DNA from: a virus
Virus record (IMG/VR): IMGVR_UViG_3300021963_006415
Coordinates: 28,632-92,631 of that record
DNA length: 64,000 bases
Strand: one strand, 5' to 3'
This document shows positions 20,068 to 61,103 of the stretch, piece after piece (position 1 is the first letter of the stretch; every line of letters starts with the position of its first letter). A program made the translations under genes and the position numbers. The notes beneath the pieces were generated by a model that saw only the letters and a list, made by a program, of their open reading frames with translations, was not told where the DNA came from and ran no database searches.

Positions 20068-20247
20068 ATGAAATACGCAATGTTACAAATAAAAAAAGAA
20101 ACCCACGAACTTCTCAAACAATATTGTGAAGAACATGGGTTTAAGATGGGAAGTTTAGTTGAAAATTTAATTAAGAAACACGTTGGTGTTACTAAACCTC
20201 AAGCGAGTGTGTTAAGAGCTGATAAGGTTAAAAATCAATCTTACTAA
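20068..20247 (+). CDS. Small ribbon-helix-helix-like DNA-binding protein
   Basis: This is the only plus-strand gene I accept. It encodes 59 residues from ATG at 20068 to TAA at 20245-20247. A short N-terminal strand (KYAMLQIKKETHELL), a helix (KQYCEEHGF) and a second helix (MGSLVENLIKKHV) fit the ribbon-helix-helix fold of Arc/CopG-type repressors. It is divergent from the fibre gene and converges on the Mre11-Rad50 gene, overlapping its 3' end by 20 bases. An ATATTTATATAAAG motif lies 32 bases upstream in the plus orientation. It may regulate the divergent fibre promoter or transcription across the convergence. Confidence 0.7.
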   Translation: MKYAMLQIKKETHELLKQYCEEHGFKMGSLVENLIKKHVGVTKPQASVLRADKVKNQSY

Positions 20248-28195: not shown

Positions 28196-31100
28196 TTATT
28201 CCACTTCCAATATTGGTTCACTTGCATCTCTACCCGCTTTATTAACTCTCAACGTATTTGGATTTGTTAAGAATGTTTCAACAGGAGGAGTACCATCCAA
28301 TGTAGTTGCTGCCGTATTTTTTGAACCATTATAAAACGAATTTTGTAATCCTCTAGTTAAATCGGATGTATTTCTATAATGCGTTTTTAAATATCCATTC
28401 AATGGAATTACTTCCATATTTGCATTTGATGATGTAAATTGATGTGAACCACTAAATGGTTGTATATTTAATTTTGTTTCAATATAAGTGTCCGTTCCAA
28501 TTTTGTTATAAAGTCCACTAACTCCTACACTTCCTGTCAAATATACATATTCTCTAGTCTTTGTTTCTTTTATAATTTGAACTCTAACTCTTTCTTTTTT
28601 AAGATTACCATCTTTATCATAGTATGTTCTTATAGCAGAACCACTTTGTGCATAAATACCAAATCCAACATTCTCATAATCACTTTGCCCAACTACAACA
28701 CTACTATTTATTAAATCTATTTCGGTTAATATAGTTGGTTCGTTAAACATAGAACCTATACTAGCCGTATATTGATATGAATTACCTTCTAATATTGAAA
28801 ACTCTTTTGCATCTATTGTAGATATGTGTTGATAAGATTCCCCATCTAATATTGCTGCTGAAGCAGATTGTATAGTTGATGTATATTGGTTATTTTCACC
28901 AATCAATGAATATTCACTTTCGGTATCTAATACAACATCGTATTGAGTATATTCAGCAGAAAGTAATTCATTACCATATTGTATTACGGATTCATAATTG
29001 TTATGCTCACCAACTGGTTTTGAATATTGATGTTTACTTCTTTCTAAAATATGTGGTTCTATTAAAAGACCGGTACTTGCTTTAACTCTTGCAGGTAACA
29101 TCTTCTTAATATCTTCAAACATAGATTTCTCATATAGTTTGATTAAGTTGATGTATGAATAAATATCTCTGCCATCGAATCTTTGGAAATAGTAATGTCT
29201 TAACTTATCCAAATTTCTATAACTATCTTTATATCTATCCGATGGGTCACCAATGTAGTTATCCAAATTAATTCCACCAAACGATTTAGCAATATCAATA
29301 TTCAACTCTTTTGTAGGAGAGAAGAATAAACCAACTCTATTTGAATCGGTTGGAGATTGGTCAAATGCTTTTTTAGTTGCTCTACCTTTTGATGATAAAT
29401 CAGAAACTAATGTTTGCTCCTCAAATCTAACTTTATTAGTTGAATAACGAGATGAGCCCATATCAGGAACTTCTAGCACAACACTTCTATCGATTGCCTC
29501 AAATTGATATGGATAATTTGGCTGTGCATTAAATCCTGCTACACTTGCGGAGAATGAAGCTGATGGATTAATTGAATACAAATCGGTTGAACTACCGCTT
29601 TCATAAGCTGCTCTATCAGAACCTTCAGCAAAGTAAATGTTTGTATCTACGTTTGGTAATGTTTGGAATACTGACAAATCTTTTGGATATTCAAAATCTA
29701 AACGGAAATGTAAATCATCGGTTGAAGATGAAATATGATTACCATTAATCATTTCAGGGAATGAAACGTGCTCATAGAATCTTTCTTTATTTAATGGCGT
29801 AGACCATAAACGGAATTCATCTGTTGTTCCAACAAAGTCATTACCAAATCTTATATTAGAACCATTGTTCCAATTTGAATTGGTTGCTAAAACGCTTATT
29901 GTTTTAGAGTCTTCAAATATAGTTCTATCTTTATCTGCTTGTCTTAAATTTAATTCAAAGTTATGATAGCTAGAACTAACTTCTCTACTAACTTCTACAC
30001 CAAAAAATCTACCATTAAATATTGGTAATAATGATGATGATATTGCGTTTGAGCCCGAATAGTTTAATATTACTCTACCATAATTTTGATTAGTAGAACC
30101 ACTTATATGTACTCCCCAACCACTACCAGAAACAATATTATATTCACCGGCTACGGATGGTTTTACAAAAAATTCTATTGTATCTGGTTTTCTATTTTGA
30201 TTTGTATTAAGCCAATCTATTGATATATAAGAGCCGTTATTCATTTTTAAACCATAAGTTAGATTATCAAATACTAACTTCGATTTACCAACTTCACTAA
30301 CTTCCGGTCCCCCAAATTCTAAAATTGAAAGATTTGATGATGGAATACCATAACAACTTAATAGTGCATATATACCCCTTCTTGTACCTTTATGTTTTAA
30401 TAGGTAAGGTAAGTTATTTACAATTCTTCTCCAAACTTCATATGTTCTTTGTTTAGCAGGATTTTCGTTTTTAATATTACCATCTACATCTATGCCAAAT
30501 GCATATTCCCAAAGTTTAGAATCTGCTGCAAGATTTTTTGCATCCCAATTGAATGATTTAAGAATATCAAATAACAATTTATCTGATACGCCATCTTTTG
30601 CTTTATATCCCAGCCCTCTACTCCTTTCAATTGCTTTAGTGTGGAAGTAAATGTTATCAAAATGTTGACCAACCATTGTAAAGAATAACGTAAATTGGTC
30701 ATTTATTTCATTATTAACAATATATTCAGGTATGTTATTTAAAACATAATTTGGATTTTCAATATCAAAATCTTCTGCTAAAGTTATTATATTATCATAC
30801 CAAGGAGTAACACTTGCAGTATCAGATGAACTCAATCTAATATTGCCATTATAAGGCCATCCCATAGAAGATGATTCGTATAAGAATTTCTCAAATCCAT
30901 CAAAACCAGCTATTAATGTATCTTTTTTAGATTGCTGTCTTTGTCTTTCTTGTATAGCAGATATTGAACCTGTATGTGAGCCGGATAAAGGAGCTGAGCC
31001 TGTTAGGTATGTATTATTAAATGCCGTTTCATATACTTCAATTAATTGAACCTTATAAACAAAATTATCAACTCTTTCTTTAGCTGAACTAAAATGTACA

Positions 31101-33373
31101 AAGTTATTCCATAGATAGTCCGAACCGCTAGCATATTCCACATTTAATTCATCGGTATTTATTAAAGATGATGTTAGGTATGTGGAAACTAATTGAGCCG
31201 ATGATGTTGAACCACTTAATATAAGATTATCCAATGATTCATAAGTAGTAGATTGACCACTTACAAAATCAGCATCAATATTAAAATTTGGTCCCTTTAT
31301 TGGAGGGCATTTAACATCATCTTGCTCTGTAAGAACTATTGTTTCAATTAGTGGATTGGACATTAATTTGGTAATCCACAATGTAGAATTTACAGAAATG
31401 TTAGGATTTAAAGGCGTGTATAATTTAAGAATTAAAGAATCTACTTCATTAGTTATCTTTACGTTTCCTATTTCATCTGTTTCTTTTTTCGATAAAGTCC
31501 AATTATCATTTTCCCAAGAAGAAATTAATATCTGCTCATCGTTACCAAAATTTGTTAAATGAGATAAATACTTATTTTCTTTTTCGGGTTCGATTACACT
31601 TAATTTTTCTGCAAAAGCATCAAATATAACAGTTGAGAATATATTTTCATCAAATTGAAATGCAGGTAATCCTAAAGTAGTTATTACCTCATATTCGTTA
31701 CCAATAAGTTCTTCGGCACCACCTCTATTAAATGGTTTAAATACTAAAGTTACGTTATCGCTTCCTGTCCAATTTGGAAACTTTTCTCTTAGAGTTTTTA
31801 AGTTTATTAAAACTTCTCCATTTGGATTTAAGTTTTTAAATAAACCTATTCTTCTTTTATCTTTTAGTAATAAATCTACATCAATAGTTGTTGTTGAAAA
31901 CGATGTATATTCTACTTTGTATTCTATATTAAAATCTGAAAACGATGGTACATCTATGTTTTGTGGAAAATTTATTTCTGTAATTGATGGAAAATCGTTT
32001 ACAGAATTAAAAGTAATTATTGAAGTAGCAGAATCACCTGTTCCGTATTTATCACTTTTAGCTAATAATACTACTTTTTTACTTCCGTAAATTTCACCAA
32101 AATCTTTTTTAAATGATAGTGTTATATATTCATTAGATGCTGGTATTGTTATTACTTCATCATTTCCATTAATGTAAATTAATATATTATCAGCGTTTTG
32201 CGTTTTAAATGGAATAGAAATAGTTTTATCATCATCCGATTCTTTTACTTGGACAGATATTTGTTTATATACATCATTTATTTCAATAGAAGGTCTTTCT
32301 ACTTGTATTTCTTTTTCAAAAAGAGTTACAACCGATATGCCTGTTTTTAAAGATTGACCTGGTACACTAAAAACAGATGATTGACTAGTCCATTTACTAT
32401 AATCAGAATCGTTTACCCCAGCTAATGCTGATGGGTTTGATGTTTGATATATGTTCTTTAAAAAATAGTTAGATGGTAAATTGTTGTATCTTATTTTAAA
32501 ATCAACCCTACTATTATTTAAAGTATTTAAATCTATTTGTTTTATAGTATTTCCCGTCTCTAAATCAATAGAACCTTCTCCTATTATATTGCCATTTGAA
32601 GAAAATATTGTATAATCTAATATTACATTTTTTCCTAATTCATTTTTTAAATTAGAAGAAAATCCAATTTCATATTCAACCATTTGTTGGGTTGGAGTTA
32701 TTTGGTCTATTGGATTTACAACATCAATCGGAAAGTTTTTTTGTATAGGTTTTAATGTAAACGTTAATGGAACGCTACCAAAATTAAATGTTCTACTATC
32801 GGCAAATTGATATGTACCATCCGATTGTAATTGCCACTCTCTTAATGTTAATATTTCAGAGTAACTATAATCGATGGCTGTTACGTTTGGTGTTATATTA
32901 TAGTTAAATCCATAGTAACCATAATCATATCTGTTATAACCATAAAAATCATAATTTGTTGGTTGATATGTGTTATAGTATGTATAATTTTGTGGTTGAT
33001 ATGTCTTTGTTACTTCTACCTCAAAATATTGATTTGGTAAAGTACCCTCTTTTCTAACCTCATATCTTTTAATACCATTAAATGTACTAGATGGAGAATA
33101 TGTTATAGTATTTGAAATACCATATCCTTTGTTTATACCATTTTCTAAAAATTCTACTTCACCACTATTTGATAATAGAGTTATTGTTATAGAATTATTA
33201 GTTATTTGATTTGTATAATTAGTTGGTACATACGTTGGATTTGGGGTAACAGGTGGTACATAACCTCCTCCACCTCCACCACCTCCATTTATAAAAGCAG
33301 TGTAATTACCATATCCATCATATGAATTCAAAGTTGGTTCTCCACCAAATATATTTTCTAATGCTGCTATCAC
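28196..33373 (-). CDS. Very large baseplate/fibre protein with polyglycine, Tyr-rich region and LamG-like domain
   Basis: 1725 residues from a GTG start at 33373 (MIAALENIFGG); no ATG fits, and the GTG lies 13 bases after an ATATTTATAA motif. Residues 30-37 are eight consecutive glycines followed by YVPPVTPNPTYVP. Residues 125-172 are strongly Tyr/Asn-rich with TYQP repeats. Several Ig-like segments follow. Residues of about 1040-1205 look like a LamG/concanavalin domain (NGSYISIDWL, FNLELN-like strands, TDEFRLWSTPLNKERF). The end is rich in repeated short blocks such as 'SYQHIST' and 'SYQYTAS'. It is likely a baseplate-attached fibre or tail-tip component. Confidence 0.8.
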   Translation of the reverse strand: MIAALENIFGGEPTLNSYDGYGNYTAFINGGGGGGGGYVPPVTPNPTYVPTNYTNQITNNSITITLLSNSGEVEFLENGINKGYGISNTITYSPSSTFNGIKRYEVRKEGTLPNQYFEVEVTKTYQPQNYTYYNTYQPTNYDFYGYNRYDYGYYGFNYNITPNVTAIDYSYSEILTLREWQLQSDGTYQFADSRTFNFGSVPLTFTLKPIQKNFPIDVVNPIDQITPTQQMVEYEIGFSSNLKNELGKNVILDYTIFSSNGNIIGEGSIDLETGNTIKQIDLNTLNNSRVDFKIRYNNLPSNYFLKNIYQTSNPSALAGVNDSDYSKWTSQSSVFSVPGQSLKTGISVVTLFEKEIQVERPSIEINDVYKQISVQVKESDDDKTISIPFKTQNADNILIYINGNDEVITIPASNEYITLSFKKDFGEIYGSKKVVLLAKSDKYGTGDSATSIITFNSVNDFPSITEINFPQNIDVPSFSDFNIEYKVEYTSFSTTTIDVDLLLKDKRRIGLFKNLNPNGEVLINLKTLREKFPNWTGSDNVTLVFKPFNRGGAEELIGNEYEVITTLGLPAFQFDENIFSTVIFDAFAEKLSVIEPEKENKYLSHLTNFGNDEQILISSWENDNWTLSKKETDEIGNVKITNEVDSLILKLYTPLNPNISVNSTLWITKLMSNPLIETIVLTEQDDVKCPPIKGPNFNIDADFVSGQSTTYESLDNLILSGSTSSAQLVSTYLTSSLINTDELNVEYASGSDYLWNNFVHFSSAKERVDNFVYKVQLIEVYETAFNNTYLTGSAPLSGSHTGSISAIQERQRQQSKKDTLIAGFDGFEKFLYESSSMGWPYNGNIRLSSSDTASVTPWYDNIITLAEDFDIENPNYVLNNIPEYIVNNEINDQFTLFFTMVGQHFDNIYFHTKAIERSRGLGYKAKDGVSDKLLFDILKSFNWDAKNLAADSKLWEYAFGIDVDGNIKNENPAKQRTYEVWRRIVNNLPYLLKHKGTRRGIYALLSCYGIPSSNLSILEFGGPEVSEVGKSKLVFDNLTYGLKMNNGSYISIDWLNTNQNRKPDTIEFFVKPSVAGEYNIVSGSGWGVHISGSTNQNYGRVILNYSGSNAISSSLLPIFNGRFFGVEVSREVSSSYHNFELNLRQADKDRTIFEDSKTISVLATNSNWNNGSNIRFGNDFVGTTDEFRLWSTPLNKERFYEHVSFPEMINGNHISSSTDDLHFRLDFEYPKDLSVFQTLPNVDTNIYFAEGSDRAAYESGSSTDLYSINPSASFSASVAGFNAQPNYPYQFEAIDRSVVLEVPDMGSSRYSTNKVRFEEQTLVSDLSSKGRATKKAFDQSPTDSNRVGLFFSPTKELNIDIAKSFGGINLDNYIGDPSDRYKDSYRNLDKLRHYYFQRFDGRDIYSYINLIKLYEKSMFEDIKKMLPARVKASTGLLIEPHILERSKHQYSKPVGEHNNYESVIQYGNELLSAEYTQYDVVLDTESEYSLIGENNQYTSTIQSASAAILDGESYQHISTIDAKEFSILEGNSYQYTASIGSMFNEPTILTEIDLINSSVVVGQSDYENVGFGIYAQSGSAIRTYYDKDGNLKKERVRVQIIKETKTREYVYLTGSVGVSGLYNKIGTDTYIETKLNIQPFSGSHQFTSSNANMEVIPLNGYLKTHYRNTSDLTRGLQNSFYNGSKNTAATTLDGTPPVETFLTNPNTLRVNKAGRDASEPILEVE

Positions 33374-42291: not shown

Positions 42292-43989
42292 TTATTTACT
42301 TATCAAATAATTACCCAATACCAAATAATCCATATCCGAATTTAGAAATGTCCATATGGCTTTTTGTGGGTCATTAGTCATTGTATGTCCTCTTAAATTA
42401 AAGGATGTATTTAATAGTATTGGTGTACCACTAACTTTCTTAAATTCTTTTAACAAAGTGTGATATAGTTTATTTTGTTTTTTAGTAACAGTGTGTATTC
42501 TAGCGGATTTATCAACGTGTGTTACCGATGGAATTGATTTATAATTGGTAACTTTAACAACCTGATTCATATACGGAACTTCTCCTTCCGATGTAAAGTA
42601 TTTTGTGTATTCTTCTACTACAACCGATGGTGCAAATGGTCTAAATAGTTCTCTCTTTTTAACAACTCTATTTATCCTATCTCTAACATCTGGCAAATGT
42701 GGATTTGCTAATATAGAACGATTTCCTAATGCTCTTGCACCAAATTCGGTTCTACCCTGAAACCAGCCTACTACTGCTCCATCGTTTATTAATTTTGCAA
42801 CTTCTTTACACAACATCGTTACTTCATCATAAAACATTGCTTTATGTGTAACTTCTTCTTTGACAATTATATTTGTCAGTTGTTGATTAGTCCATTCTGG
42901 TCCTAAATACGGAGATTGATTATCTCCACCTTTTACTTTTGGGTTTCCTAATATATTATGCCAATGATATAAACATGCTCCAATAGCAGAACCAGCATCT
43001 GATGGTGCGAATGGAATCCATAAATTACCAACCGGTGCATGCTTTTGTATTTTACCATTAGCAGTTCCATTGTATGCAGAACCTCCACCCAATACTAAGT
43101 TAGATGTATTAGATTGTTGCATACAATTATTTGTAAAATAATAAAAACAACTCTCATACCATTTTTGTAATGCGGCTGCTAAATCCATATGGTGTTGCTC
43201 TATTTTCGATTCTGGCTCTCTTGGTTCTATTCCTATAAGATTTACTAATTTGTATGTGTACATATCAGTATTTGAATATTGCCAAGTAAAATACTTTTGC
43301 TCAATTTCTATACTACCACGAGCATCAAATTTTGAAATCTTATCAAATACGTGCTTATATTTTGTTGGGTCACCATATGGTGCTAATCCCATTACTTTAT
43401 ATTCTCCGTTGTTTGGTTTGAATCCTAAATATGCGGTTATGGTTGAATAAACCAATCCCAATGAGTTTGGAAATTTAAGAGATGCAATTTCTTCAAATGT
43501 ATTATTCTTACACATTACCGCTAATGCACTCTCCCACTCACCAACACCATCTACTGAAATACCAACACAATTATCAAATGGAGACGTGTAATATGAAAAA
43601 GCTAAATGAGAATGATGGTGTTTTATATATTCTATTTTGCCTGTAAAATTTAATTTTTTGGCCAAATATACGTTTAAATTACCTTCAGTTTCTTCAAATT
43701 CTTTTTTAAATTGTTTCCAAATTTTACGATTTTTCCACCAACGTTTTCCTACGGTGTTTTTTACTCTATCGTATTTTAAGATTGGGTCCTCATACCAACA
43801 AATGGTATCTATATCGGATATTGTTTTTTTAGAATAATCTAATACCCACTTAATTGCTTGCTTTGGAAATGAATTATCGTGTTTTATGCCAGATAATTTT
43901 TCTTCTTCAATAGCCGCTATCACTTTTCCGTTTTCAAATAAACAAACTGCTGAATCGTGATAAAATGCGGAAATGCCTAATGAAACCAT
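42292..43989 (-). CDS. Carbamoyltransferase, NodU/CmcH family
   Basis: 565 residues, a full-length member. The N-terminal Kae1/YrdC-like part has LGISAFYHDSAVCLFENGKV (residues 4-23), HHHSHLAFSYYTSPFDN, GISVDGVGEWE and LGGGSAYNGTANGKI. The C-terminal part has QGRTEFGARALGNRSILANP. These enzymes form carbamoyl-AMP from carbamoyl phosphate and ATP and transfer the carbamoyl group to a hydroxyl of a sugar, antibiotic or nucleoside. Here the acceptor could be a virion glycan or a modified nucleotide; the sequence does not decide. It is four bases downstream of the sigma factor gene. Confidence 0.93.
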   Translation of the reverse strand: MVSLGISAFYHDSAVCLFENGKVIAAIEEEKLSGIKHDNSFPKQAIKWVLDYSKKTISDIDTICWYEDPILKYDRVKNTVGKRWWKNRKIWKQFKKEFEETEGNLNVYLAKKLNFTGKIEYIKHHHSHLAFSYYTSPFDNCVGISVDGVGEWESALAVMCKNNTFEEIASLKFPNSLGLVYSTITAYLGFKPNNGEYKVMGLAPYGDPTKYKHVFDKISKFDARGSIEIEQKYFTWQYSNTDMYTYKLVNLIGIEPREPESKIEQHHMDLAAALQKWYESCFYYFTNNCMQQSNTSNLVLGGGSAYNGTANGKIQKHAPVGNLWIPFAPSDAGSAIGACLYHWHNILGNPKVKGGDNQSPYLGPEWTNQQLTNIIVKEEVTHKAMFYDEVTMLCKEVAKLINDGAVVGWFQGRTEFGARALGNRSILANPHLPDVRDRINRVVKKRELFRPFAPSVVVEEYTKYFTSEGEVPYMNQVVKVTNYKSIPSVTHVDKSARIHTVTKKQNKLYHTLLKEFKKVSGTPILLNTSFNLRGHTMTNDPQKAIWTFLNSDMDYLVLGNYLISK

Positions 43990-50899: not shown

Positions 50900-51558
50900 T
50901 ATATTATTTTTTTATTATCAATTAATGAGTATAAAAAATGTGCAAAATTTAAATGACCATTAAATGAAAAGTGTGTATCCTTTATTAAACCATTCGTATG
51001 CTTATATATTGTTTCAAATGATGCGTATAGCTCATCATCATCTTCTAAAGACCATATGTAGCAAAACTTAACTTTGGTTTCGCTTAATAATCTTTTTTTT
51101 ATAAAATCAAATCTTTTTTTGTGTCTGTTTTTATAAAAAATATCATTTGAAAAATAATATTGAAAATTTAATATTGTTTCTATTTTATCTTTATCATTTA
51201 TACAATCTTTGTTCAAAATATTTTTAGCACCTTCATATGCTGATAATATGTGATGTATGTTATCATCAATAGGAACATCAATTCTTCCATATAAGGTTGT
51301 ATTTATTATAACAATATCATTATTTTGGATGGAATCAAAATTATCAATTATACTATCGAATATGTAGTCATTAGAAGCTCCATTTTTTCCAAAATTTTTA
51401 ACATCATAATTTAATAAATTACCTAAATGATTTGGCCAAATATCATCACCTTTATTCTTATATAAAGAATACTTCACACTAACATCGGATTTACAATTTA
51501 TATTACAACCATGACCAAATGTCATAGAATCTCCAAAAGTCCAAAGCACAGTACTCAT
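50899..51558 (-). CDS. SGNH/GDSL hydrolase-like protein
   Basis: 219 residues. The N-terminus has VLWTFGDSMTFGHGCN, a GDS block with candidate nucleophile Ser11. GKNGASNDYIFDSII is the Asn-containing block and DTHFSFNGHLNFAHFL near the end gives the Asp-x-His pair. It is a paralogue of the truncated gene at 1-624. SGNH proteins act as esterases, acetylhydrolases or acyltransferases on glycans. Its ATG overlaps the FkbM-type methyltransferase stop by four bases. Confidence 0.8.
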   Translation of the reverse strand: MSTVLWTFGDSMTFGHGCNINCKSDVSVKYSLYKNKGDDIWPNHLGNLLNYDVKNFGKNGASNDYIFDSIIDNFDSIQNNDIVIINTTLYGRIDVPIDDNIHHILSAYEGAKNILNKDCINDKDKIETILNFQYYFSNDIFYKNRHKKRFDFIKKRLLSETKVKFCYIWSLEDDDELYASFETIYKHTNGLIKDTHFSFNGHLNFAHFLYSLIDNKKII

Positions 51559-52166
51559 ATGAATCTTTTAATATTTTTTTTACAAAATTGAACATCTATA
51601 TCATATCTTTTTAAACTCTTTTTAAATAATTGTATTTCTGATGAATTGATTATATCGAAATCATTTTCTTTTAAAAAATTTATTACATCATCTATATAAT
51701 TAAAACTATTTAAATATAAATCTTCAAATAAAGATACTTCTACCTTGCCTCTTTTTATTATTGATATTTTTTCTCCAAATGATTTTAAAATTTTAAAATC
51801 CTCACCTTGAGCATCGCAATGAAAATAATCTACATAATTAATTTTATTTTGATTTAAAAACGCATCCATTCTTATAACATCTACCAATATTTTATCTACA
51901 TACTTTATTTTACTATTTTGATTAGCAAATTGAGTTAATTGATTTAAAGAAGAAGATAATCCATCACTTGCTAAATTAAAAAAGGAAGTTCCGTTAAAAT
52001 CACTAACCGCTTTTTCTATTATATTAACATTCTTATATCTTTTAAATTTGTTTTTTAATAAATTAGCATATATTGGATTTGGTTCAAAACACCAAACGTT
52101 TGCATTATCTAAAAAACCAATTGTGTGGCTTCCATCATTAGAGCCTATTTCAATTATATTTTTCAT
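51555..52166 (-). CDS. FkbM-type SAM-dependent methyltransferase
   Basis: 203 residues. NIIEIGSNDGSHTIGFL is the SAM-binding glycine motif; VWCFEPNPIYANLLKNKF, VNIIEKAVSDFNGTSFFN and VIRMDAFL...DYFHCDAQGEDFKILKSF follow the FkbM family pattern (E-P, A-x-x, D-x-x-G-x-E). FkbM enzymes O-methylate sugars and polyketides, so a glycan acceptor is likely. It overlaps both neighbours by four bases, a sign of translational coupling. It ends in KRFI. Confidence 0.85.
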   Translation of the reverse strand: MKNIIEIGSNDGSHTIGFLDNANVWCFEPNPIYANLLKNKFKRYKNVNIIEKAVSDFNGTSFFNLASDGLSSSLNQLTQFANQNSKIKYVDKILVDVIRMDAFLNQNKINYVDYFHCDAQGEDFKILKSFGEKISIIKRGKVEVSLFEDLYLNSFNYIDDVINFLKENDFDIINSSEIQLFKKSLKRYDIDVQFCKKNIKRFI

Positions 52167-52861
52167 ATCAGTTTTCCGGATTTAAATAAATGCCTATTCA
52201 ACATTTTTTCAGCCATATGATATACTCCATTTTTTTCTAAATTATCATAAGATGGGTTACTATCAAATAAATAATTAATATTATTAAAATATAAATTAAT
52301 GTATTGTTGATTTAATGTAATTGGTGGAACACCATTGTACCTTTCAATAAAAAAATCATAATTCTTGTCTATAATTTTCAACACATCAGAATAAGATTTA
52401 TTAACGTTTAAATAATCATTAGTCGCCACTATACACGTGTTATTTAATTCGTTAAATTTTAGAGGGATGTTAGAATAACGTTTATATATTTCAGTAAAAT
52501 GCTCTGTTTGGGTTTCACTTAAAGGATGTTTGTAACCTAAGTTCAGTTTATCACCATCTACGATGTTCATTAATTTACTAAAATCTTCAACTAATAAATC
52601 ATTATCTAAATGTATAAATGGAAAATCAATTGTGGATAATACTTTTAATTTAGGATATGACCATAACGCGTTTCGATTATATTTTTCATCTATCTCAAAT
52701 TTAATCCATTTATATTTTAGACCCACCTGTTCGAAATAATCTTTATCGGAATATATCAAAGGAATGATGTTTTGACTATTTAAATTTTCAATAGAGTATT
52801 TTAAATATATTTCAGTAGTTTGTTTAAGTCTAATTGGTAAATATGTAAATACAACTTGCAT
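52163..52861 (-). CDS. GT-A-like glycosyltransferase (HLDND type)
   Basis: 232 residues. FPFIHLDNDLLVEDFSKL near residue 80 holds a D-x-D site, and VYHMAEKMLNRHLFKSG lies at the end. The N-terminus QVVFTYLPIRLKQTTEIYLKYSIENL resembles GT-A-like nucleotide-sugar enzymes that start with an 'S.......Y...' helix. Donor and acceptor are unknown. It overlaps the downstream methyltransferase by four bases and the upstream gene by one. Confidence 0.7.
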   Translation of the reverse strand: MQVVFTYLPIRLKQTTEIYLKYSIENLNSQNIIPLIYSDKDYFEQVGLKYKWIKFEIDEKYNRNALWSYPKLKVLSTIDFPFIHLDNDLLVEDFSKLMNIVDGDKLNLGYKHPLSETQTEHFTEIYKRYSNIPLKFNELNNTCIVATNDYLNVNKSYSDVLKIIDKNYDFFIERYNGVPPITLNQQYINLYFNNINYLFDSNPSYDNLEKNGVYHMAEKMLNRHLFKSGKLI

Positions 52862-54114
52862 TATAATAAAGATTTTTTAATTAAAAATTCAGTTTTCAAA
52901 CCTCCATCAATTATCAAATCCAATAATGAATTTTCATTTTCTATTTTATACATTAGTTTGTTATGTACCAAATCGGACCATTCTTTACATAATCTATAAT
53001 TTTCATCAAAATTATGTAAAAAATCTTTAATAAAACATGCAAACATTTTTGAGTTTGCTCTAAATTCCTTAGATTCTTTATAAAAAGGATGCGGTCTTAC
53101 ACCTAACATAGATTGAACTATATCTAACGGATAATTATGCGTTGAAACAAAAGGTATCGAAGCTAATAGCAAGCTTAATGTTTTTTCTGAAAGATATTGT
53201 GATGTAAAATCTCTATCACTCCAAGACCAACTTTCGCATAATATTTGCATTTTGGATTTTGGAAGAACTCTAAAAAATACATCCATATATCCTTGGTGAT
53301 TTGCTATATAACTAATATCATCAAAATCTTTTTCACCATATATAGAATTGGTTTTTATATGAGTTATTTTTGGAGAATACTTTTCATATGCTTGATTTTG
53401 TAAAGCATTTGTATGTTGTAAATACAACCTATCATTTTTTAATTTACTTAATTCATTTATAATATTAATTCTGTTTATTTTATGATTCTTAATACTGTAC
53501 ATTAAATCATAATCAAAGTTTAATTTATCATATACTTGCTTAAACTCATAATACCATCTAACATTCCAATTTGTATTCCATTGAAATATTGTGTTTGTTA
53601 ATACATAATAAAAATTTGGGTACTGCTGTTTTATCGATTCGTTTAAAAAAAAATTATCTGTAATTATATGATGCTGACTCAATTGAGATATCAAAGATTC
53701 TATTTCTAACCATTTTTCATCAAAGTAATTAACATCTTTAGTTTGTAATATTTTTTCAGTTCTAAAATATGTTATTATCCATTTTTGATTTTTTGGACAA
53801 TTTTTTAATAAATTTATAAATATTTTTAAAATTTGTTGAGTTTCTCTTTCCATATACTGCATATCTGGCAGAATAGCACCTATTTTTGGGTCATTTTTCC
53901 CATATGAAAATGCCGCAAAATAATCTAATATATGGATACCATCTTCTTCAAAACTCATCTCTTGCTTAAAAATGAATTCTAATTTTGTATTATTGTACTT
54001 ACAAAATATACTTCCCTCATTATTATCTTTTATATCAAAGATTCTATTTGTAGTATTATGCGCTAATTTATAAAAAATAGATTTATTATAATAATGATGT
54101 ATGTATATTTTCAT
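52861..54114 (-). CDS. Putative glycosyltransferase, exostosin/GT-B-like C-terminus
   Basis: 417 residues. The N-terminal 260 residues are Asn/Tyr-rich and lack known motifs. The C-terminal third has LCESWSWSDRDFTSQYLSEK followed by TLSLLLASIPFVSTHNYPLDIVQSMLG, which fits the 'E......SEKt...l....Pfv' block of exostosin-like and other phage glycosyltransferases. It probably transfers a sugar to a glycan or protein acceptor. It shares one base with each neighbour. Confidence 0.6.
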   Translation of the reverse strand: MKIYIHHYYNKSIFYKLAHNTTNRIFDIKDNNEGSIFCKYNNTKLEFIFKQEMSFEEDGIHILDYFAAFSYGKNDPKIGAILPDMQYMERETQQILKIFINLLKNCPKNQKWIITYFRTEKILQTKDVNYFDEKWLEIESLISQLSQHHIITDNFFLNESIKQQYPNFYYVLTNTIFQWNTNWNVRWYYEFKQVYDKLNFDYDLMYSIKNHKINRINIINELSKLKNDRLYLQHTNALQNQAYEKYSPKITHIKTNSIYGEKDFDDISYIANHQGYMDVFFRVLPKSKMQILCESWSWSDRDFTSQYLSEKTLSLLLASIPFVSTHNYPLDIVQSMLGVRPHPFYKESKEFRANSKMFACFIKDFLHNFDENYRLCKEWSDLVHNKLMYKIENENSLLDLIIDGGLKTEFLIKKSLL

Positions 54115-54727: not shown

Positions 54728-55216
54728 TTAAATTAATTTAGATTCTTCATTTTTAATTCTTAAACGATTATAACTATTTATATCAAATAAATTTTCATAG
54801 TATTGAATTTCAATATTTAATATCTTTGATAGTGTTTCTATTTCTTTAATCCATTTAAAGATATCACTTGTGCATAAATCTATAATATTTTTTGGCGGTT
54901 GTTTATAGCAATATTTATTATTAGAATTATACCCCTCTACTTTTGAAAAATAAGTTTGATATGAATGAGATTCTATCAACTCTTTTAAATTTTTTCTACT
55001 TAAAAGTATAACTTCATCAAATGATTTTGCTAATTCTAAATTATTGGGGTGGTGAGAAATTATCGTTTTAACAACTGAATTATTTTGATTATTATAAATA
55101 ACTCTATTAGTTCCATCAAATGGTTCAAAGAATGGTTTTAAATTTTTTTCATTTGCCAACCTATACATCAAAGATGTTGAGCCTGTTCTTGGTAAGGCTA
55201 TTATTAATATTTTCAT
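54728..55216 (-). CDS. Sulfotransferase-like P-loop protein (short)
   Basis: 162 residues. ILIIALPRTGSTSLMYRLA (residues 3-21) is the 5'-phosphosulfate-binding loop of PAPS-dependent sulfotransferases, and DEVILLSRKNLKELIESHSYQ near residue 70 corresponds to the 3'-phosphate-binding region. It is shorter than usual sulfotransferases (250 or more), so it could be reduced or partly degraded. The likely reaction is sulfate transfer from PAPS to a glycan or tyrosine. It overlaps the oxygenase upstream by four bases. Confidence 0.75.
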   Translation of the reverse strand: MKILIIALPRTGSTSLMYRLANEKNLKPFFEPFDGTNRVIYNNQNNSVVKTIISHHPNNLELAKSFDEVILLSRKNLKELIESHSYQTYFSKVEGYNSNNKYCYKQPPKNIIDLCTSDIFKWIKEIETLSKILNIEIQYYENLFDINSYNRLRIKNEESKLI

Positions 55217-55776
55217 AAAAAAGATTTTTCTTTTTTCATAGGTATAAATCTATTTTCTTCCTCCGATAACCAAATATTTAAAGCATATCGTTCACCTTTG
55301 GTCACAGGCAAAACACCGTGAAAAATTTCATTTCCTATAAAAGATATACCATCTCCTTTAGAAAGTTTTATAAGTTTTATATTATTTAAATTTTCAAAAT
55401 GATAGTTGTTACTAACCTTATTTGTTATAGCAAATCTTCCATCTTCATACTCATCATTTAAAGTTATAACAATTGTTAAAGAACTACTGGAATCTTTATG
55501 TAAATTTAAATATCTTCCATCATAGTATGCAGTTAAACTTACGTTTATACTTTTTACTTTTAAAGATTCAAAATCCATCCATAAATTCCAATCCCCCGCT
55601 TTATATTTACTTTCTAATATTTTATATACTTTTAGCTTCAATTCCTCATCATAAATTCTTCTACAATCCCAATTTTCATTTGGATTATAATTAAATGGTA
55701 CTCCTATTTCTAATGCTTTTTTTAGAAAATAAGAACATTCATCATCATTAAAAAAATTATTTATTGTATAGTTCAT
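55213..55776 (-). CDS. Fe(II)/2-oxoglutarate-dependent oxygenase
   Basis: 187 residues with the iron triad: LNLHKDSSSSLT (H-x-D) near residue 99, NEIFHGVLPVTKGERYALNIW with the second His and the 2-oxoglutarate-binding Arg. The fold between has VITLNDEYEDGRFAI, a double-stranded beta-helix pattern typical of prolyl 4-hydroxylase-like enzymes. It would hydroxylate a side chain of a protein or peptide, or a sugar. It overlaps both neighbours by four bases. Confidence 0.88.
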   Translation of the reverse strand: MNYTINNFFNDDECSYFLKKALEIGVPFNYNPNENWDCRRIYDEELKLKVYKILESKYKAGDWNLWMDFESLKVKSINVSLTAYYDGRYLNLHKDSSSSLTIVITLNDEYEDGRFAITNKVSNNYHFENLNNIKLIKLSKGDGISFIGNEIFHGVLPVTKGERYALNIWLSEEENRFIPMKKEKSFL

Positions 55777-56591
55777 ATTAGATGTGATTTTTTTACTGCA
55801 TCGTAATTTAATAAATTATTATTATCTATGAAACTAAATAATTCATCCGCAATAAATTTATATCCATTACTATTTGGGTGTTTACCCACAATATCCGACC
55901 AAGACTCATTATCTTCCCATACATCATTTTGTTTAGTATCTATTAGTAAGTCAGCCATTGTTTTGGTTTGATAACCCCAATATCGATTGATACCTATTAA
56001 ATTGGTTTTATTAATCAATGTATCTATATTTTTACTAATCATAGTATCAAACGCATCACAAAAAAGATATCTAATTCCTAACTCTTTGAACATAAACTGA
56101 AGATGAAGAATATAGTTTTGATTCACTATATCGTAGTATGCATCATTAAATAAATTAGCTATGTAGTAATTTCTAAAATTTTTCTCTGCTTTGTTATATT
56201 TTACACTATCTCCACTTATTCCATCAAATATATTTTTAAAAATATGTCCCTTACTTTTATATCGTTTACCCCATATAAAAAAATCATCTTCATTGTGAAA
56301 AAAAGGTAAGGGGTCTCTTAACGATGATGACCACATAACAACAACAAAATCATCTTTGGTGATAATTTCATTTTTCAGTTGATAAAAAATTGTATTAAAT
56401 ATTGCATTATTTGAGAAACCACCAACTCCATTATTTTTAACCTCACAACCAAGCGATTCAGACAGGTATTTTGGCCAACAATATTTTTGTCTTATTTTTG
56501 TTTTTTCTTCGGGAATATTGGTAGTATCTTCTTCTCTAATATTCCCACCAACTCCTTCTGTCCAGCTATCACCATATGTAAATAATTTCAT
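55773..56591 (-). CDS. SGNH hydrolase-like protein, long form
   Basis: 272 residues. KLFTYGDSWTEGVGGN is the GDS block (Ser9). GVGGFSNNAIFNTIF contains the Gly/Asn blocks; GKHPNSNGYKFIADEL is the C-terminal His block. An insert of about 60 residues after WSSSLRDPLPFFHNEDDFFI makes it longer than its relatives. It probably acts as an esterase or acyltransferase on a glycan. It lies three bases after the sulfotransferase gene and overlaps the oxygenase. Confidence 0.75.
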   Translation of the reverse strand: MKLFTYGDSWTEGVGGNIREEDTTNIPEEKTKIRQKYCWPKYLSESLGCEVKNNGVGGFSNNAIFNTIFYQLKNEIITKDDFVVVMWSSSLRDPLPFFHNEDDFFIWGKRYKSKGHIFKNIFDGISGDSVKYNKAEKNFRNYYIANLFNDAYYDIVNQNYILHLQFMFKELGIRYLFCDAFDTMISKNIDTLINKTNLIGINRYWGYQTKTMADLLIDTKQNDVWEDNESWSDIVGKHPNSNGYKFIADELFSFIDNNNLLNYDAVKKSHLI

Positions 56592-56594
56592 ACA

Positions 56595-57335
56595 CTATAT
56601 GATTGATAAGTTATTTTTAATAGAACCATCAATATACTTATTAACAAACTCTACTAACTCCGGTGTTCTCTTTACTTTAGAAGTTATTGAATTTTGATTT
56701 ACATGCATTAATTTAAAATCAACATTAAATTTATTAGACATATATGATTCAAATTCATACAATTTATCAAAATCAAATGTTTTAACTTTTACTCTATCGT
56801 TTAGAATCCAATGATATTGTGATGATAATCCAAATGTGTGAATTTGAAATCTATCATTGAACGCCTCATTAGTCAAATATTTTTGCTTAAACCCTAAATC
56901 GATTAATAATTTTTCAAAGAAAGATTTTCTAATATCTTGAGAGGAATAAATGTTTGTATATTCCGAATAGTTTTTTTTAATAAAATCAATTACAAACGAA
57001 TTATCTATATTTGTTAAATGATAAATAGTTTCTTCATCCGGATGTAGTTCACACATACCAGCTATAAAAAATCTCCAAGCGGATATAAACCTATCGGTAG
57101 AATCTCTTATTATTGAAACAAATTCAAAATCAGAACCAAAGCTAGCTATTAAAGAATGAAGTTTAGAATGTATGTGATTTCTTTTATTTTTCATTCTGAT
57201 ATTAGACCTAATCGAATTTTCCCATAAAGTATTTGGGAACTTTAAATCAAAACCATAAAATATACAGGATTCCTCTACAGACCAAGAAGCATTTTTAGGT
57301 ATTGGAATAAATGCAACTTTATCATTTATAATCAT
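56595..57335 (-). CDS. Sulfotransferase family 2-like protein
   Basis: 246 residues. VAFIPIPKNASWSVEES (residues 8-24) is the PAPS 5'-phosphosulfate loop of the family 2 type (vPKxAstS), and FEFVSIIRDSTDRFISAWRFF near residue 75 is the RDPxxRxxSxY block that binds the 3'-phosphate. The C-terminus is a helical substrate-binding region. It would transfer sulfate to a glycan. It is clearly different from the short P-loop protein at 54728. It requires PAPS, which must come from the host or another part of the phage genome. Confidence 0.8.
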   Translation of the reverse strand: MIINDKVAFIPIPKNASWSVEESCIFYGFDLKFPNTLWENSIRSNIRMKNKRNHIHSKLHSLIASFGSDFEFVSIIRDSTDRFISAWRFFIAGMCELHPDEETIYHLTNIDNSFVIDFIKKNYSEYTNIYSSQDIRKSFFEKLLIDLGFKQKYLTNEAFNDRFQIHTFGLSSQYHWILNDRVKVKTFDFDKLYEFESYMSNKFNVDFKLMHVNQNSITSKVKRTPELVEFVNKYIDGSIKNNLSII

Positions 57336-57336
57336 A

Positions 57337-57888
57337 TTAAATTAAACTTTTTGCGTTTTTAATTTTATTTTTTATTTGAAACCCCAAACTTAAAGTTATT
57401 CTAGGTTTATCACCAATAACAGGCGTAGAACCATGCATTACTTTTCCCGCAACACACCTCCAAACCATTTTTTCTTTAAGCTCGTTTATTTTTCCATTAT
57501 AAATTGAATGACCGCCTTCGTTTGGATACGATATTATTACATTATATCTAATGTGTGTATAACCTTCTAAATTTGGGTCACTATGTAGATGGATATTACC
57601 GCCGGCTTTATTTATACCAATACCATCTTCAAAATTTGGTTCTGTAACCCATTCATTAATTTTTTCTAAATTTATTATTCTATTTTTTATAGAACTAACT
57701 AACTCAAATATATTAGTATGAAATTCTTTTATAACCAAATACTTTCTAGAACCATATGGTGATGATTTTGATTCATTTACAGGAAAAATAAACTCATTTT
57801 CTTTTATCCAATTTAAAAAAGTTAATTGTTCACTATCGGATATAAAGTTTTCATACCCATATGTATCATATAGCTCGACTCGATTCAT
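57337..57888 (-). CDS. Fe(II)/2-oxoglutarate-dependent oxygenase
   Basis: 183 residues. NIHLHSDPNLEGYTHIRYNV holds the H-x-D pair; VWRCVAGKVMHGSTPVIGDKPRITLSLGFQ holds the distal His and the Arg. PNEGGHSIYNGKINELKEK lies between them. The pattern resembles phage and bacterial 2OG oxygenases that hydroxylate proteins or small molecules. It follows the 38-residue peptide gene after 20 bases. It ends NAKSLI on the recurring TTAATTTAA junction. Confidence 0.87.
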   Translation of the reverse strand: MNRVELYDTYGYENFISDSEQLTFLNWIKENEFIFPVNESKSSPYGSRKYLVIKEFHTNIFELVSSIKNRIINLEKINEWVTEPNFEDGIGINKAGGNIHLHSDPNLEGYTHIRYNVIISYPNEGGHSIYNGKINELKEKMVWRCVAGKVMHGSTPVIGDKPRITLSLGFQIKNKIKNAKSLI

Positions 57889-57908: not shown

Positions 57909-58025
57909 TTATTGAGTAACATCCGTATATATAATAGATGCAACTTCTTGCATTATAGTTGCTATGCTAGAATTTGTAGATGAGCTTGTTAATACTACTT
58001 CTGATGATATGATTTTTGGTTTCAT
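57909..58025 (-). CDS. 38-residue Ser/Thr-rich peptide, candidate substrate peptide
   Basis: A short frame, ATG at 58025 to TAA at 57909-57911, encoding a peptide with a basic start (MKPKIISSEV), a Ser/Thr-rich middle (VLTSSSTNSSIAT) and an end IIYTDVTQ. It fills the gap between the ATP-grasp/Hint-like gene and the oxygenase gene. Small size, Ser/Thr content and neighbours that modify peptides make it a candidate precursor, but it has no leader/core signature I can name. It could also be a fortuitous frame. Confidence 0.45.
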   Translation of the reverse strand: MKPKIISSEVVLTSSSTNSSIATIMQEVASIIYTDVTQ

Positions 58026-58043
58026 TTTATTAAATTATTTATA

Positions 58044-59573
58044 TTATAGTTTAGGTATTGGGCCATAGCAAAAAGAGCAACTATTACAGTAATAATAAGC
58101 ACATGAGCTCGTCCAACACCAACCATAGCATGGATTGTGTTGGATAAACGATAATCCTAAATTTTCATCTGCTAAAGGTAAAAACAAATCATTCTCTTCC
58201 ACATCTATATCATATACTTTTCTATTTGCATATACCACTTCTAAATTTGTTATTTTAGATTTAACCAATGTATTATTATTATAATCATAAAACACAATGG
58301 AATCATTTACTCTAAATTCATTTGTATGAGAGAAAATTGTTCTAAGAGTATCATATTCTTCTATTAACATATCACTATGTGGCAAATCTTCATAAATCAA
58401 CCCATTTTCTAGAGTTACTTTTATCATTAAAGATTCCTTAGTTTCACTAACTAAATTAACTATTGTAGTGCCTGTTATACCAAACGTAGTTAAATCTTCG
58501 GCAAAACTTCCAGAATTTACAGTTGGTATATACAATGGTTCGCCTGTTTCCGATATATCATTTGCCGGCACCCAAGGTAATGTAACTGTTTTTAAAACAT
58601 CATTTTCAAGTACTTGATTCGGAAATTTCATTGAACCATCTGCGTATAATATCTTAGTATCATCATCAAAAATGTATGAAATACCCATTCTTTGGTTAGG
58701 CGATTTACTAATCCATAAAGGTCTTGCTTCCTGATTCATTAAACCATTAGAATTATATAATGTATCCCAACTATTAGCTTTAATAGGTGATGTCATTATA
58801 TATGAACCCAAATGTAAACAATTTAATGTAGAACCATATATAATATCTAAACTTCTGATAACACCCATTTTTTCTTCAACCACATTATCAGTATTTGAGT
58901 GAAACTCTTCTAAATACTCTAAAGATGTTAACGAAGCTTTTAATGTTGCTAAATCTTCTAAAGAATTTACTTTATATAATTTTGGATATTGTACATAATC
59001 CGTATTTGGATATCTAGTCTTTACAATATAGTTTGGAGCATCTCCATCTGTTAAATGTAATTCTATCAAATTATCTACATTAAGACTTGTATCGGTTGAT
59101 GAGTTATAATATATTTTTGTTGAAAAAGATTGATTAGAAACTGCTCTATGAAAATTCACTTTATCTTTTGCATAACTTTCATCAATAATAGCTGTTGTAT
59201 CATATGATGTTCTTAATATTAAAGTATCATCTGCATCTTCTACATATGGAACTGTTATTGAATTTTTTGCAACTTCATATGCGGTAAATGTACCACCAAT
59301 TTCGTTTGCAACCTCTTCCAATTTATCTTTTAAAGTTAGTTTTGGAATATGCGTATCGAATCTTGTGGCTCTTTCTGTATTTATGAAATTACCATCTGTA
59401 TAAATAAAATGTAATTTAGATATAGAGTTATCTATTAAAAATTGTTTAAAAGATACCCAATCTAAATCAGGCACAATTATATTATGCACATCTACATTAG
59501 TATTTGTTTCTACAATTTTTAAGTTACCATTGTTATCTTTAACAAAGTCAGTTCCAATTATTACGGCTTTCAT
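58044..59573 (-). CDS. ATP-grasp-like enzyme fused to a Hint/intein-like domain with Cys-rich tail
   Basis: 509 residues. The N-terminus MKAVIIGTDF, GNLKIVETNTNVDV has an E-x-N-T-N block that in ATP-grasp enzymes binds metal near the C-terminus, so the domain may be permuted. ADDTLILRTSYDTTAIIDE and NYIVKTRYPNTDYV follow, then VIRSLDIIYG. Residues of about 365-480 look like a Hint domain: VTLENGLIYEDLPHSDMLI, FRVNDSIVFYD, KVYDIDVEENDLFLP and SFIQHNPC. I see no clear first-block Cys or Ser. The last 29 residues have six cysteines (482, 486, 491, 496, 499, 502) with several Tyr and Trp. An ATATTTATAA motif lies 16 bases upstream of the ATG. The tail could be a released or modified Cys-rich peptide. 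Confidence 0.65.
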   Translation of the reverse strand: MKAVIIGTDFVKDNNGNLKIVETNTNVDVHNIIVPDLDWVSFKQFLIDNSISKLHFIYTDGNFINTERATRFDTHIPKLTLKDKLEEVANEIGGTFTAYEVAKNSITVPYVEDADDTLILRTSYDTTAIIDESYAKDKVNFHRAVSNQSFSTKIYYNSSTDTSLNVDNLIELHLTDGDAPNYIVKTRYPNTDYVQYPKLYKVNSLEDLATLKASLTSLEYLEEFHSNTDNVVEEKMGVIRSLDIIYGSTLNCLHLGSYIMTSPIKANSWDTLYNSNGLMNQEARPLWISKSPNQRMGISYIFDDDTKILYADGSMKFPNQVLENDVLKTVTLPWVPANDISETGEPLYIPTVNSGSFAEDLTTFGITGTTIVNLVSETKESLMIKVTLENGLIYEDLPHSDMLIEEYDTLRTIFSHTNEFRVNDSIVFYDYNNNTLVKSKITNLEVVYANRKVYDIDVEENDLFLPLADENLGLSFIQHNPCYGWCWTSSCAYYYCNSCSFCYGPIPKL

Positions 59574-59606: not shown

Positions 59607-60242
59607 TTAAATTAAACTTACTTTTTCTTTTACATATTCAAACCCAACATTACCGGCTATTACTATTCTATCTTTAGTAGAATTAGGCGAATTATTTGGA
59701 GAATGCTCTAATGTTCCATCCATAACAATCAGGTCACATACTTCCGGCATTATATAATATCTTTTACCTTCTTTACCCCCAATAATCAATGTACCCTCAT
59801 TGTTTTCTAAATTATCAGGCATCTGCAAATAATATACAAATGTGTAATTTGGATAAAACAATCCATCTTTTTTTTGTAAATCTACATGATTATGTAGGGA
59901 TACTTCCTCATTTTTTTTGAAATTAGTTTGTTTTGGTTTTCCCTTTCTAACAACATTTATCCAACACCCAAATTTGATTATATTAAAATTCATTTTATTC
60001 GTTTTTGCTAAAGATGCACATTCCGCTAAACAAAGTTTTACAGCTTGCTCCATAAAATTATTTGGAATAAAATCTTTTTCTAAATCAAAAAAGTCGCCAC
60101 CGAAAAAAGAATAATTATCCCTCCTTGCATAACTATTTATTAGATAATCTTCACATTCTTTTAAAACTAATTTTTGAAAATCATATGAATCTATTTTTGT
60201 CTTATAGACAAATATCCCATCTTCAAACGTAATTTTTTCCAT
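59607..60242 (-). CDS. Fe(II)/2-oxoglutarate-dependent oxygenase
   Basis: 211 residues. EVSLHNHVDLQKKDG has the H-x-D pair, NYTFVYYLQMPDNLEN lies in the core, and DGTLEHSPNNSPNSTKDRIVIAGN has the distal His and the Arg. The type is that of phage 2OG oxygenases that carry a 'HxD...H...R' set. It lies two bases after the zinc-ribbon gene upstream and before the late motif at 59590. The stop lies in TTTAATTTAA. Confidence 0.85.
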   Translation of the reverse strand: MEKITFEDGIFVYKTKIDSYDFQKLVLKECEDYLINSYARRDNYSFFGGDFFDLEKDFIPNNFMEQAVKLCLAECASLAKTNKMNFNIIKFGCWINVVRKGKPKQTNFKKNEEVSLHNHVDLQKKDGLFYPNYTFVYYLQMPDNLENNEGTLIIGGKEGKRYYIMPEVCDLIVMDGTLEHSPNNSPNSTKDRIVIAGNVGFEYVKEKVSLI

Positions 60243-60244
60243 AT

Positions 60245-60541
60245 CTAAATAGTTGTTTTTTGTTTTTTACTTTTTAAGGTAAGAGATTTTACATATGGCT
60301 CTTCCACTATATTCCATTTATCCAATGGACAACTACCATATTGGTCTGTAAATATTTTTTTTGATAGAGGACATCCACACTTACCACATAAAGCAGACCA
60401 TTTTTTATTATGAATTATTTCCTTACGCATATCACATCCCATACAAATATTCAGCCTAAGTTCTGCTAATTCTTTTTGCATTTTATTTGGGTTTTCTGCT
60501 GTTACCCAAGCTTTTAATATTTCTATTAAATCAAATCCCAT
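60245..60541 (-). CDS. Small zinc-binding protein (DUF6171-like)
   Basis: 98 residues with eight apparent metal-binding positions: NICMGCDMR, ALCGKCGCPL and GSCPLDKW. These arrange as two or more Cys-x2-Cys knuckles, like DUF6171-type zinc-ribbon proteins found in marine phages. A structural zinc site is likely. It may bind nucleic acid or a partner oxygenase. It starts one base after the stop of the upstream prolyl hydroxylase-like gene. Confidence 0.75.
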   Translation of the reverse strand: MGFDLIEILKAWVTAENPNKMQKELAELRLNICMGCDMRKEIIHNKKWSALCGKCGCPLSKKIFTDQYGSCPLDKWNIVEEPYVKSLTLKSKKQKTTI

Positions 60542-60542
60542 T

Positions 60543-61103
60543 TTATAATAAAGTTTTTTTAATATTTTTTATTTGTTTTAATTTCAACCAATTTACTAAA
60601 GAGTATCTTATACCTGAAGTTATTGGTTTAACCCTATGTACCACTTCCGAAGGAAATATAAATAGATTTCCTACTCCTTTTTCTAATGTAATTTCTTTAT
60701 TTGTTAAAAGTTGAAACTCACCATCCATATATTCATCATTCAATTGCAGGACTATTGTATAAAATCTATCTTTAAATACCGTATCATTTGAATCGGCATG
60801 CCAATCAAAGAAATCGCCTTTTTCATATTTTGTAAACTGAAAGGTATCCAAAGATGGTTCATATCCTTTTATATTCTCAACATGCTCTTTGACTTTATCT
60901 AAAATTTTATTACCCACTATTCCAATATCTTCTACAAAAGAAACCTTAGATTTTCTCGTTTCTTTTTTTCTTTGAATATTATCAGGGTGATATACTTCCG
61001 CATTACTTAATTCCGAATCAATGTTATAATTGTTTATCAACAAATCACACTCATCCTTTTCTAAAAATTTCGGAATAGTTAGTATTTTATAATCATTTTG
61101 CAT
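60543..61103 (-). CDS. Prolyl 4-hydroxylase-like 2OG oxygenase
   Basis: 186 residues. FQFTKYEKGDFFDWHADSND (H-x-D at about residue 105), TIVLQLNDEYMDGEFQL and FPSEVVHRVKPITSGIRYSLVNWL (His and Arg) form a complete prolyl 4-hydroxylase-like set. It would hydroxylate Pro or Asp/Lys side chains in a target protein. The NDEYMDGEFQL block is shared in style with the oxygenase at 55213. It is one base downstream of the 100-residue gene. Confidence 0.9.
   Translation of the reverse strand: MQNDYKILTIPKFLEKDECDLLINNYNIDSELSNAEVYHPDNIQRKKETRKSKVSFVEDIGIVGNKILDKVKEHVENIKGYEPSLDTFQFTKYEKGDFFDWHADSNDTVFKDRFYTIVLQLNDEYMDGEFQLLTNKEITLEKGVGNLFIFPSEVVHRVKPITSGIRYSLVNWLKLKQIKNIKKTLL

Follow-up and report, generated by a model that had tools for sequence, protein, structure and literature searches.

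Genes and features at the locus

The window, i.e. the whole 64,000-nucleotide stretch of DNA analysed here, comes from a virus record of 92.6 kb, in which baseplate and tail-fibre genes of myovirus type occur. Its minus strand carries a gene for a 509-aa protein that appears to join a permuted ATP-grasp-like part, a Hint domain without Cys1 and a six-Cys tail. This gene, its parts, a small partner ORF and the neighbouring genes are as follows (counts out of 86 refer to distinct family members).

58044..59573, minus strand: 509-aa fusion protein, with a putative permuted ATP-grasp-like part, a Cys1-less Hint and a six-Cys tail
59478..59573, minus strand: residues 1-32, putative permuted ATP-grasp end piece (GTDF..G..ETNTN); D9, E22, N24 and T25 invariant (86/86)
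58704..59477, minus strand: residues 33-290, putative pre-ATP-grasp part and ATP-grasp core, assigned by secondary structure, invariant residues and profile matches
58134..58676, minus strand: residues 300-480, predicted Hint/intein fold, with Tyr300 in place of the block-A Cys and with neither the B-block TxxH nor the F-block His
58134..58139, minus strand: His479-Asn480, invariant (86/86), with cleavage predicted after Asn
58047..58133, minus strand: 29-residue tail PCYGWCWTSSCAYYYCNSCSFCYGPIPKL, six Cys, predicted to be disordered
57909..58025, minus strand: 38-aa partner ORF MKPKIISSEVVLTSSSTNSSIATIMQEVASIIYTDVTQ
59607..60242, minus strand: 2OG-Fe(II) oxygenase-like protein; family in 31/51 loci
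60245..60541, minus strand: 98-aa Cys-rich protein, DUF6171/phrog_13558-like; family in 44/51 loci
60543..61103, minus strand: 2OG-Fe(II) oxygenase (PF13640, E 1.3e-13)
57337..57888, minus strand: phrog_13746-like protein
56595..57335, minus strand: sulfotransferase-like protein; family in 45/51 loci
55773..56591, minus strand: SGNH/GDSL hydrolase-like protein
55213..55776, minus strand: 2OG-Fe(II) oxygenase (PF13640, E 1.4e-8)
54728..55216, minus strand: sulfotransferase-like protein, weak match
52861..54114, minus strand: 417-aa protein, no assigned function; family in 35/51 loci
51555..52166, minus strand: FkbM-type methyltransferase (PF05050, E 1.3e-11)

The blocks named in an earlier, sequence-only reading of the locus are all in the 509-aa ORF: IVETNTN (residues 20-26), VKTRYP (184-189), IRSLD (239-243), KVYDIDVEEN and SFIQHN, the last ending at N480. 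Likewise, the six-Cys tail it described comprises the 29 residues after N480, with Cys at positions 482, 486, 491, 496, 499 and 502. Annotation of the neighbours confirmed the enzyme-rich surroundings (oxygenases, sulfotransferases, a methyltransferase). The late-type motif that the same reading had assigned to the gene did not hold up: the window contains 23 copies of TATAAATA, where chance alone predicts 24.4, and the one immediately upstream of the ORF lies on the opposite strand, so the late-promoter argument was rejected.

The neighbourhood recurs in related phages. Across 51 loci, the most frequent neighbours were sulfotransferase-like proteins (45), ~95-aa Cys-rich DUF6171-like proteins (44) and 2OG oxygenases (40 and 31), with the ~427-aa family (35), SGNH proteins (26) and a second sulfotransferase (25) also recurring; radical SAM/SPASM, APS kinase, carbamoyltransferase and tryptophan halogenase were rarer. 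Examples from the gene clusters of related phages are a tryptophan halogenase (L113:3011-4258), a radical SAM/SPASM protein (L016:1130-2425) and an APS kinase (L014:3335-3802). For a comparable cyanophage cluster with a halogenase, 2OG oxygenases and carbamoyltransferases, the published interpretation is a pathway for a metabolite or a capsule (PMC7824862). Elsewhere in the window, the minus strand encodes a Nol-like carbamoyltransferase (42292-43989; phrog_1601, E 1e-123), a 1725-aa protein for which PHROGs gave no match (28196-33373), and a 1047-aa protein (20228-23371) with SbcD-like residues 4-335 and SbcC-like residues 291-1046, an apparent natural SbcD-SbcC fusion.

A virus-borne family with an obligate partner ORF

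A protein search yielded 8 relatives in IMG/VR and an alignment search 13. In one of them, L015, the Cys tail is followed by an S74 domain; the end of this protein served as a further query and, together with broader alignments, extended the family to at least 253 IMG/VR loci, on contigs of up to 287 kb. The closest 113 of these were fetched and analysed, and conservation was counted in 86 distinct members, the alignment of which reaches ~25% identity. Every fetched member has the identical build of ATP-grasp-like part, Hint and tail. A tblastn search of INPHARED found no family relatives, only S74 pieces, and the sole match in GTDB (L145) is a 3.7-kb contig in a Pelagibacterales MAG, which is probably viral despite its binning. 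The family is virus-borne and hardly seen among isolates. No entry in Pfam, PHROGs, PDB or INPHARED names it, and a PHROGs search with the window protein returned nothing.

Directly downstream of the fusion gene lies a small partner ORF of 37-52 aa, which the earlier reading had not mentioned, just as it had not mentioned the S74 and second-Hint forms of relatives described below. For the count, ORFs of 33-60 aa that begin with ATG and start within 62 nt of the gene were taken. Such an ORF was present at 113/113 loci, compared with 20/444 control genes at the same loci; the gene and its partner are an obligate pair. Many partner ORFs close with a helix-like segment containing KHL, and PHROGs held no match for the ORF. 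In 81% of close pairs the partner evolved more slowly than the tail, on which ground a role as payload-specific immunity protein was rejected.

A putative permuted ATP-grasp domain

Ten residues of the N-terminal half are invariant in 86/86 members (D9, E22, N24, T25, R121, D131, Y134, D137, K185 and R240), and D243 is kept in 85/86. They include the hallmarks of ATP-grasp enzymes, namely the E-x-N that binds metal in such enzymes (E22, N24), the Lys that binds ATP there (K185) and Arg/Asp (R240, D243). In the normal ATP-grasp order the GxD..ExN hairpin is the last element; here it is N-terminal. Profile matches are split in the same manner. In native order, residues 1-27 of one member (L163) matched positions 142-168 of the 188 in the RimK profile, while in another (L148) residues 169-219 matched RimK 42-87 and residues 5-29 matched ATPgrasp_ST 234-258 of 278. 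When the end piece of L163 was moved back, a single RimK match ran across the junction (64-168, E 0.007); this value was reached in one member only, with several others at E 0.03-0.2. The predicted strands and helices of the AlphaFold model also run in permuted ATP-grasp order.

Profile scores were low throughout. Comparison with RimK and ATPgrasp_ST by hhalign put the motifs in register at E 0.04-0.16, a weak result; scores for control families and reversed profiles were equally low or only slightly lower, and the case for an ATP-grasp is therefore based on the conserved residues, the order in which the profiles match and the secondary structure prediction. None of the Pfam ATP-grasp models reached its curated cut-off for the family, a PDB profile search with the restored-order sequence gave no match, and there was no ATP-grasp structure among the 50 Foldseek matches listed. 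Taken together, the sequence features make it highly probable that the N-terminal half is an ATP-grasp domain. The circular permutation, which the sequence-only reading had offered as a possibility, is supported, not proven: the scores are weak, and the order is consistent, the N-terminus corresponding to the profile end and later residues to its middle.

A Hint domain that keeps its terminal His-Asn

An AlphaFold (AF2) model built with 86 sequences reached a pLDDT of 86.5 and a pTM of 0.82, with a disordered tail; with only 14 close relatives the pLDDT was 47. The 50 PDB matches that Foldseek listed all belong to inteins, BIL domains or Hedgehog domains; the best had E 1.7e-7, and TM by target reached 0.77. 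The Pfam Intein_splicing match was weak (E 0.018), and a sequence-profile search of the PDB gave the TvoVMA intein as its sole match (E 0.47). In the predicted structure, residues 300-480 clearly form a Hint/intein fold, in agreement with what had been proposed from the late Hint blocks. These blocks are indeed present; so are the early ones, which the earlier reading did not list.

The earlier remark that a first-block Cys/Ser is missing was correct. The Cys1 position of block A is Tyr300 (YIFDDDTKILYADGS), and the family has no Cys there (Tyr 61, Leu 16, Phe 4, Val 2, Ile 2, Ala 1; n = 86). In block B the Thr position is Asp in 82/86 members, with His in 25, and the His position of the F block is Asp in 84/86. 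A class 1 intein was rejected, since Cys1/Ser1, the block-B TxxH and the F-block His are all missing; with these residues lost, the domain should neither splice nor cleave at its N-terminal side. His479-Asn480, in contrast, is kept in all 86 members, down to ~25% identity. In full-length relatives of 58-97% identity, this motif and the tail cysteines are both conserved. Neither of the two refuting conditions set by the earlier reading was thus borne out: the structure prediction shows a Hint fold, and homologues retain the His-Asn and the cysteines.

According to reviews, Asn cyclization is a separate step of splicing, and A-type BIL domains undergo C-terminal cleavage without a +1 nucleophile (PMC4031507, PMC5874633). 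Because the His-Asn is absolute and the other Hint residues are eroded, the pattern suggests that this Hint has retained C-terminal Asn cleavage only. The residue behind Asn480 is variable (S 25, Y 18, P, A and G 9 each, n = 86; T also occurs); the Pro that had been counted as a weak point does follow the Asn in the window protein, but is one option among several in the family. Two features nevertheless warn against cleavage in the window protein itself. One is the loss of the F-block His, a residue that aids Asn cyclization in inteins; the other is the predicted scissile bond, Asn-Pro, which is expected to be a poor bond for such cleavage. The His-Asn could instead be retained for structure.

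A different protein, with a mid-positioned Hint (Cys, THP, HN-K) and two large S74 tail fibres adjoining, is encoded in related large phages (L276:6379-8139 and L277:5852-7513). Its sequence suggests a lectin-like C-terminal part.

A tail with a constant Cys frame and variable loops

Where no C-terminal module follows, the median tail length is 29 residues, and Cys makes up 20%, Trp 8% and Tyr 9% of the tail. The usual number of cysteines is 6-12; it is even in all S74 members (6, 8, 10 or 12) and mostly even elsewhere. Asp, Glu and Lys account for 1.4, 1.6 and 3.7%, which makes a classic side-chain graspetide core, with its conserved Thr/Ser/Lys and Asp/Glu, unlikely. Between close pairs, at 79% identity of the body, 99% of the cysteines were kept and the other tail positions were 49% identical. 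Consistently, the median dN was 0.23 in the tail, 0.065 in the ATP-grasp part and 0.071 in the Hint, at similar dS. The tail thus looks like a peptide in which loops vary on a fixed Cys frame, a pattern typically seen in peptides stapled by disulphides or metal.

What follows the tail differs among members. In 24/86 an S74 domain with Ser and Lys(+5) stands directly behind it, confirmed by Pfam in 17 of the 33 members scanned; one clade of five (L147, L148, L149, L151 and L200) has a second, canonical Hint (Cys1, GHP, VHN), and the remaining 57/86 have neither. The window protein lacks S74 and ends 7 residues past the sixth Cys. The three C-terminal states changed at least six times on the tree. 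Two unrelated self-cleaving modules at one place fit a need to free the C-terminus of a peptide. In the divergent L200, almost no Cys precedes the second Hint. Of the 57 members with neither module, 40 have KL, KI or KV as their last residues, similar to the ends of S74 forms (..EFKKL/KKIN); such ends may be left over from a lost S74 or may have a function of their own.

A possible self-processing peptide precursor

We propose that the gene product is a self-processing precursor carrying its own peptide-bond-forming enzyme. Lacking the residues for the first, N-terminal step at Cys1, the Hint would perform only the last one, in which Asn480 cyclizes and releases the tail as a free peptide of ~29 residues. 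In relatives, the opposite end of this peptide would be trimmed by the C-terminal S74 autoprotease or the second canonical Hint. Next, the ATP-grasp part would act on the peptide, either by a RiPP-like cross-link or by attaching it to some target, for example a tail fibre. The partner ORF would serve this reaction as cofactor, carrier or substrate, and the nearby oxygenases and sulfotransferases may decorate the peptide or the target. These decorating enzymes may also act on glycans or fibres instead. We infer cleavage, ligation and target from the features described above. That Asn cyclization frees the Cys-rich peptide and that the ATP-grasp acts on or with this peptide to form an amide or ester bond seems to us to have somewhat less than an even chance. 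Only as a tentative suggestion do we put forward the wider reading, a new type of phage peptide maker in which a permuted ATP-grasp, a hypervariable cystine-framed peptide in cis, an Asn-only Hint and an obligate micro-protein yield a decorated peptide that is released or joined to the particle, S74 or a second Hint trimming its other end.

As the main alternative, the protein might be a virion or tail-fibre part with a structural or adhesin role, the Hint being a degenerate spacer or maturation-only cutter, the tail a hypervariable receptor-binding tip and S74 a trimerizing chaperone. S74 domains serve tail-fibre and tail-spike assembly (PMC7824862) and normally sit in virion proteins. For one S74 member, the PHROGs match is to a group of virion structural proteins. 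L108, L016, L017 and L018 have a tail-fibre gene within the same gene run, and in two of the phage genomes another Hint protein, with HN-K followed by more residues, adjoins large S74 tail fibres; rapid tail evolution on a constant Cys frame would also suit receptor binding. We nevertheless consider this alternative rather unlikely, as it leaves the invariant catalytic-type residues of the ATP-grasp unexplained, the majority of members have no S74, and in long genomes the fusion gene is distinct from the large S74 fibres. Peptide release and a virion role could both be partly true if a released or ligated peptide decorates the tail.

It is improbable that the ATP-grasp works in trans only, for instance as a ligase that adds amino acids to the partner or to proteins of the phage or the host, while Hint and tail only regulate or anchor it. 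ATP-grasps of the R2K clade have been proposed as protein-peptide ligases in phage conflicts (PMC4431377), and the partner ORF is obligate; however, the absolute His-Asn, the Cys frame with its variable loops and the self-cleaving modules after the tail would have no explanation. Equally poor are the prospects of a toxin-like payload, in which the Hint would release a Cys-rich effector against the host or competing phages and the small ORF would confer immunity: the layout is alike, with a C-terminal payload to be released by a Hint and a small gene behind it, and L148 has a Pfam PT-HINT match in its second Hint (E 2.2e-8), but the partner evolves too slowly relative to the tail for payload-specific immunity, all tails share one Cys theme with no swapping of unrelated domains, and an ATP-grasp in cis is left unexplained.

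If the predicted cleavage by the precursor is true, its Hint domain is limited to the final step of splicing, and ligase and peptide scaffold are genetically fused, with loops varying among fixed cysteines. It would also give a concrete function to the clusters of oxygenases, sulfotransferases and halogenases in large phages.

Comparison with known systems

Each part of the protein is a known fold, and C-terminal payloads released by a Hint are already known (PT-HINT). The assembly of permuted ATP-grasp, Asn-only Hint, Cys-frame tail and obligate micro-ORF was not found in the literature and databases searched, and the literature search returned no paper uniting ATP-grasp, Hint domain and phage. 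With RimK-like, ATPgrasp_ST and R2K proteins (CDC123, DUF4343) the family has the E-x-N, K, R and D motifs in common, and it matches the RimK and ATPgrasp_ST profiles. R2K members occur in phages and have been proposed to be peptide ligases (PMC4431377). Unlike the ATP-grasp superfamily, the window family has the last hairpin (GxD..ExN) at the N-terminus and is fused to a Hint and a Cys tail. Inteins and BIL domains are alike in Hint fold, block order and terminal His-Asn, and A-type BILs likewise lack a +1 nucleophile; the family differs from inteins in lacking Cys1/Ser1 and TxxH and in the Asp at the F-block His position.

Graspetides are RiPPs whose ligases are of the ATP-grasp type. Bacterial graspetide clusters with strict partner proteins and 2OG oxygenases are on record (PMC13097080). 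They resemble the present loci in the ATP-grasp enzyme, the small obligate partner and the nearby 2OG oxygenases, a parallel by gene content only; the candidate core of the family is fused to the enzyme, Cys-rich and phage-encoded. S74 tail-fibre proteins share their S74 domain with 24/86 members, whereas the window protein lacks it and the N-terminal part is enzyme-like rather than fibrous. PT-HINT toxins have the same arrangement of a Hint ahead of a C-terminal payload and a small gene behind; in the family, however, the payload is a conserved Cys frame and the partner does not co-diversify with it. In borosins, the enzyme is fused to its own C-terminal core peptide. The cis C-terminal peptide is thus alike, but borosins have a methyltransferase in place of the ATP-grasp, and no Hint.
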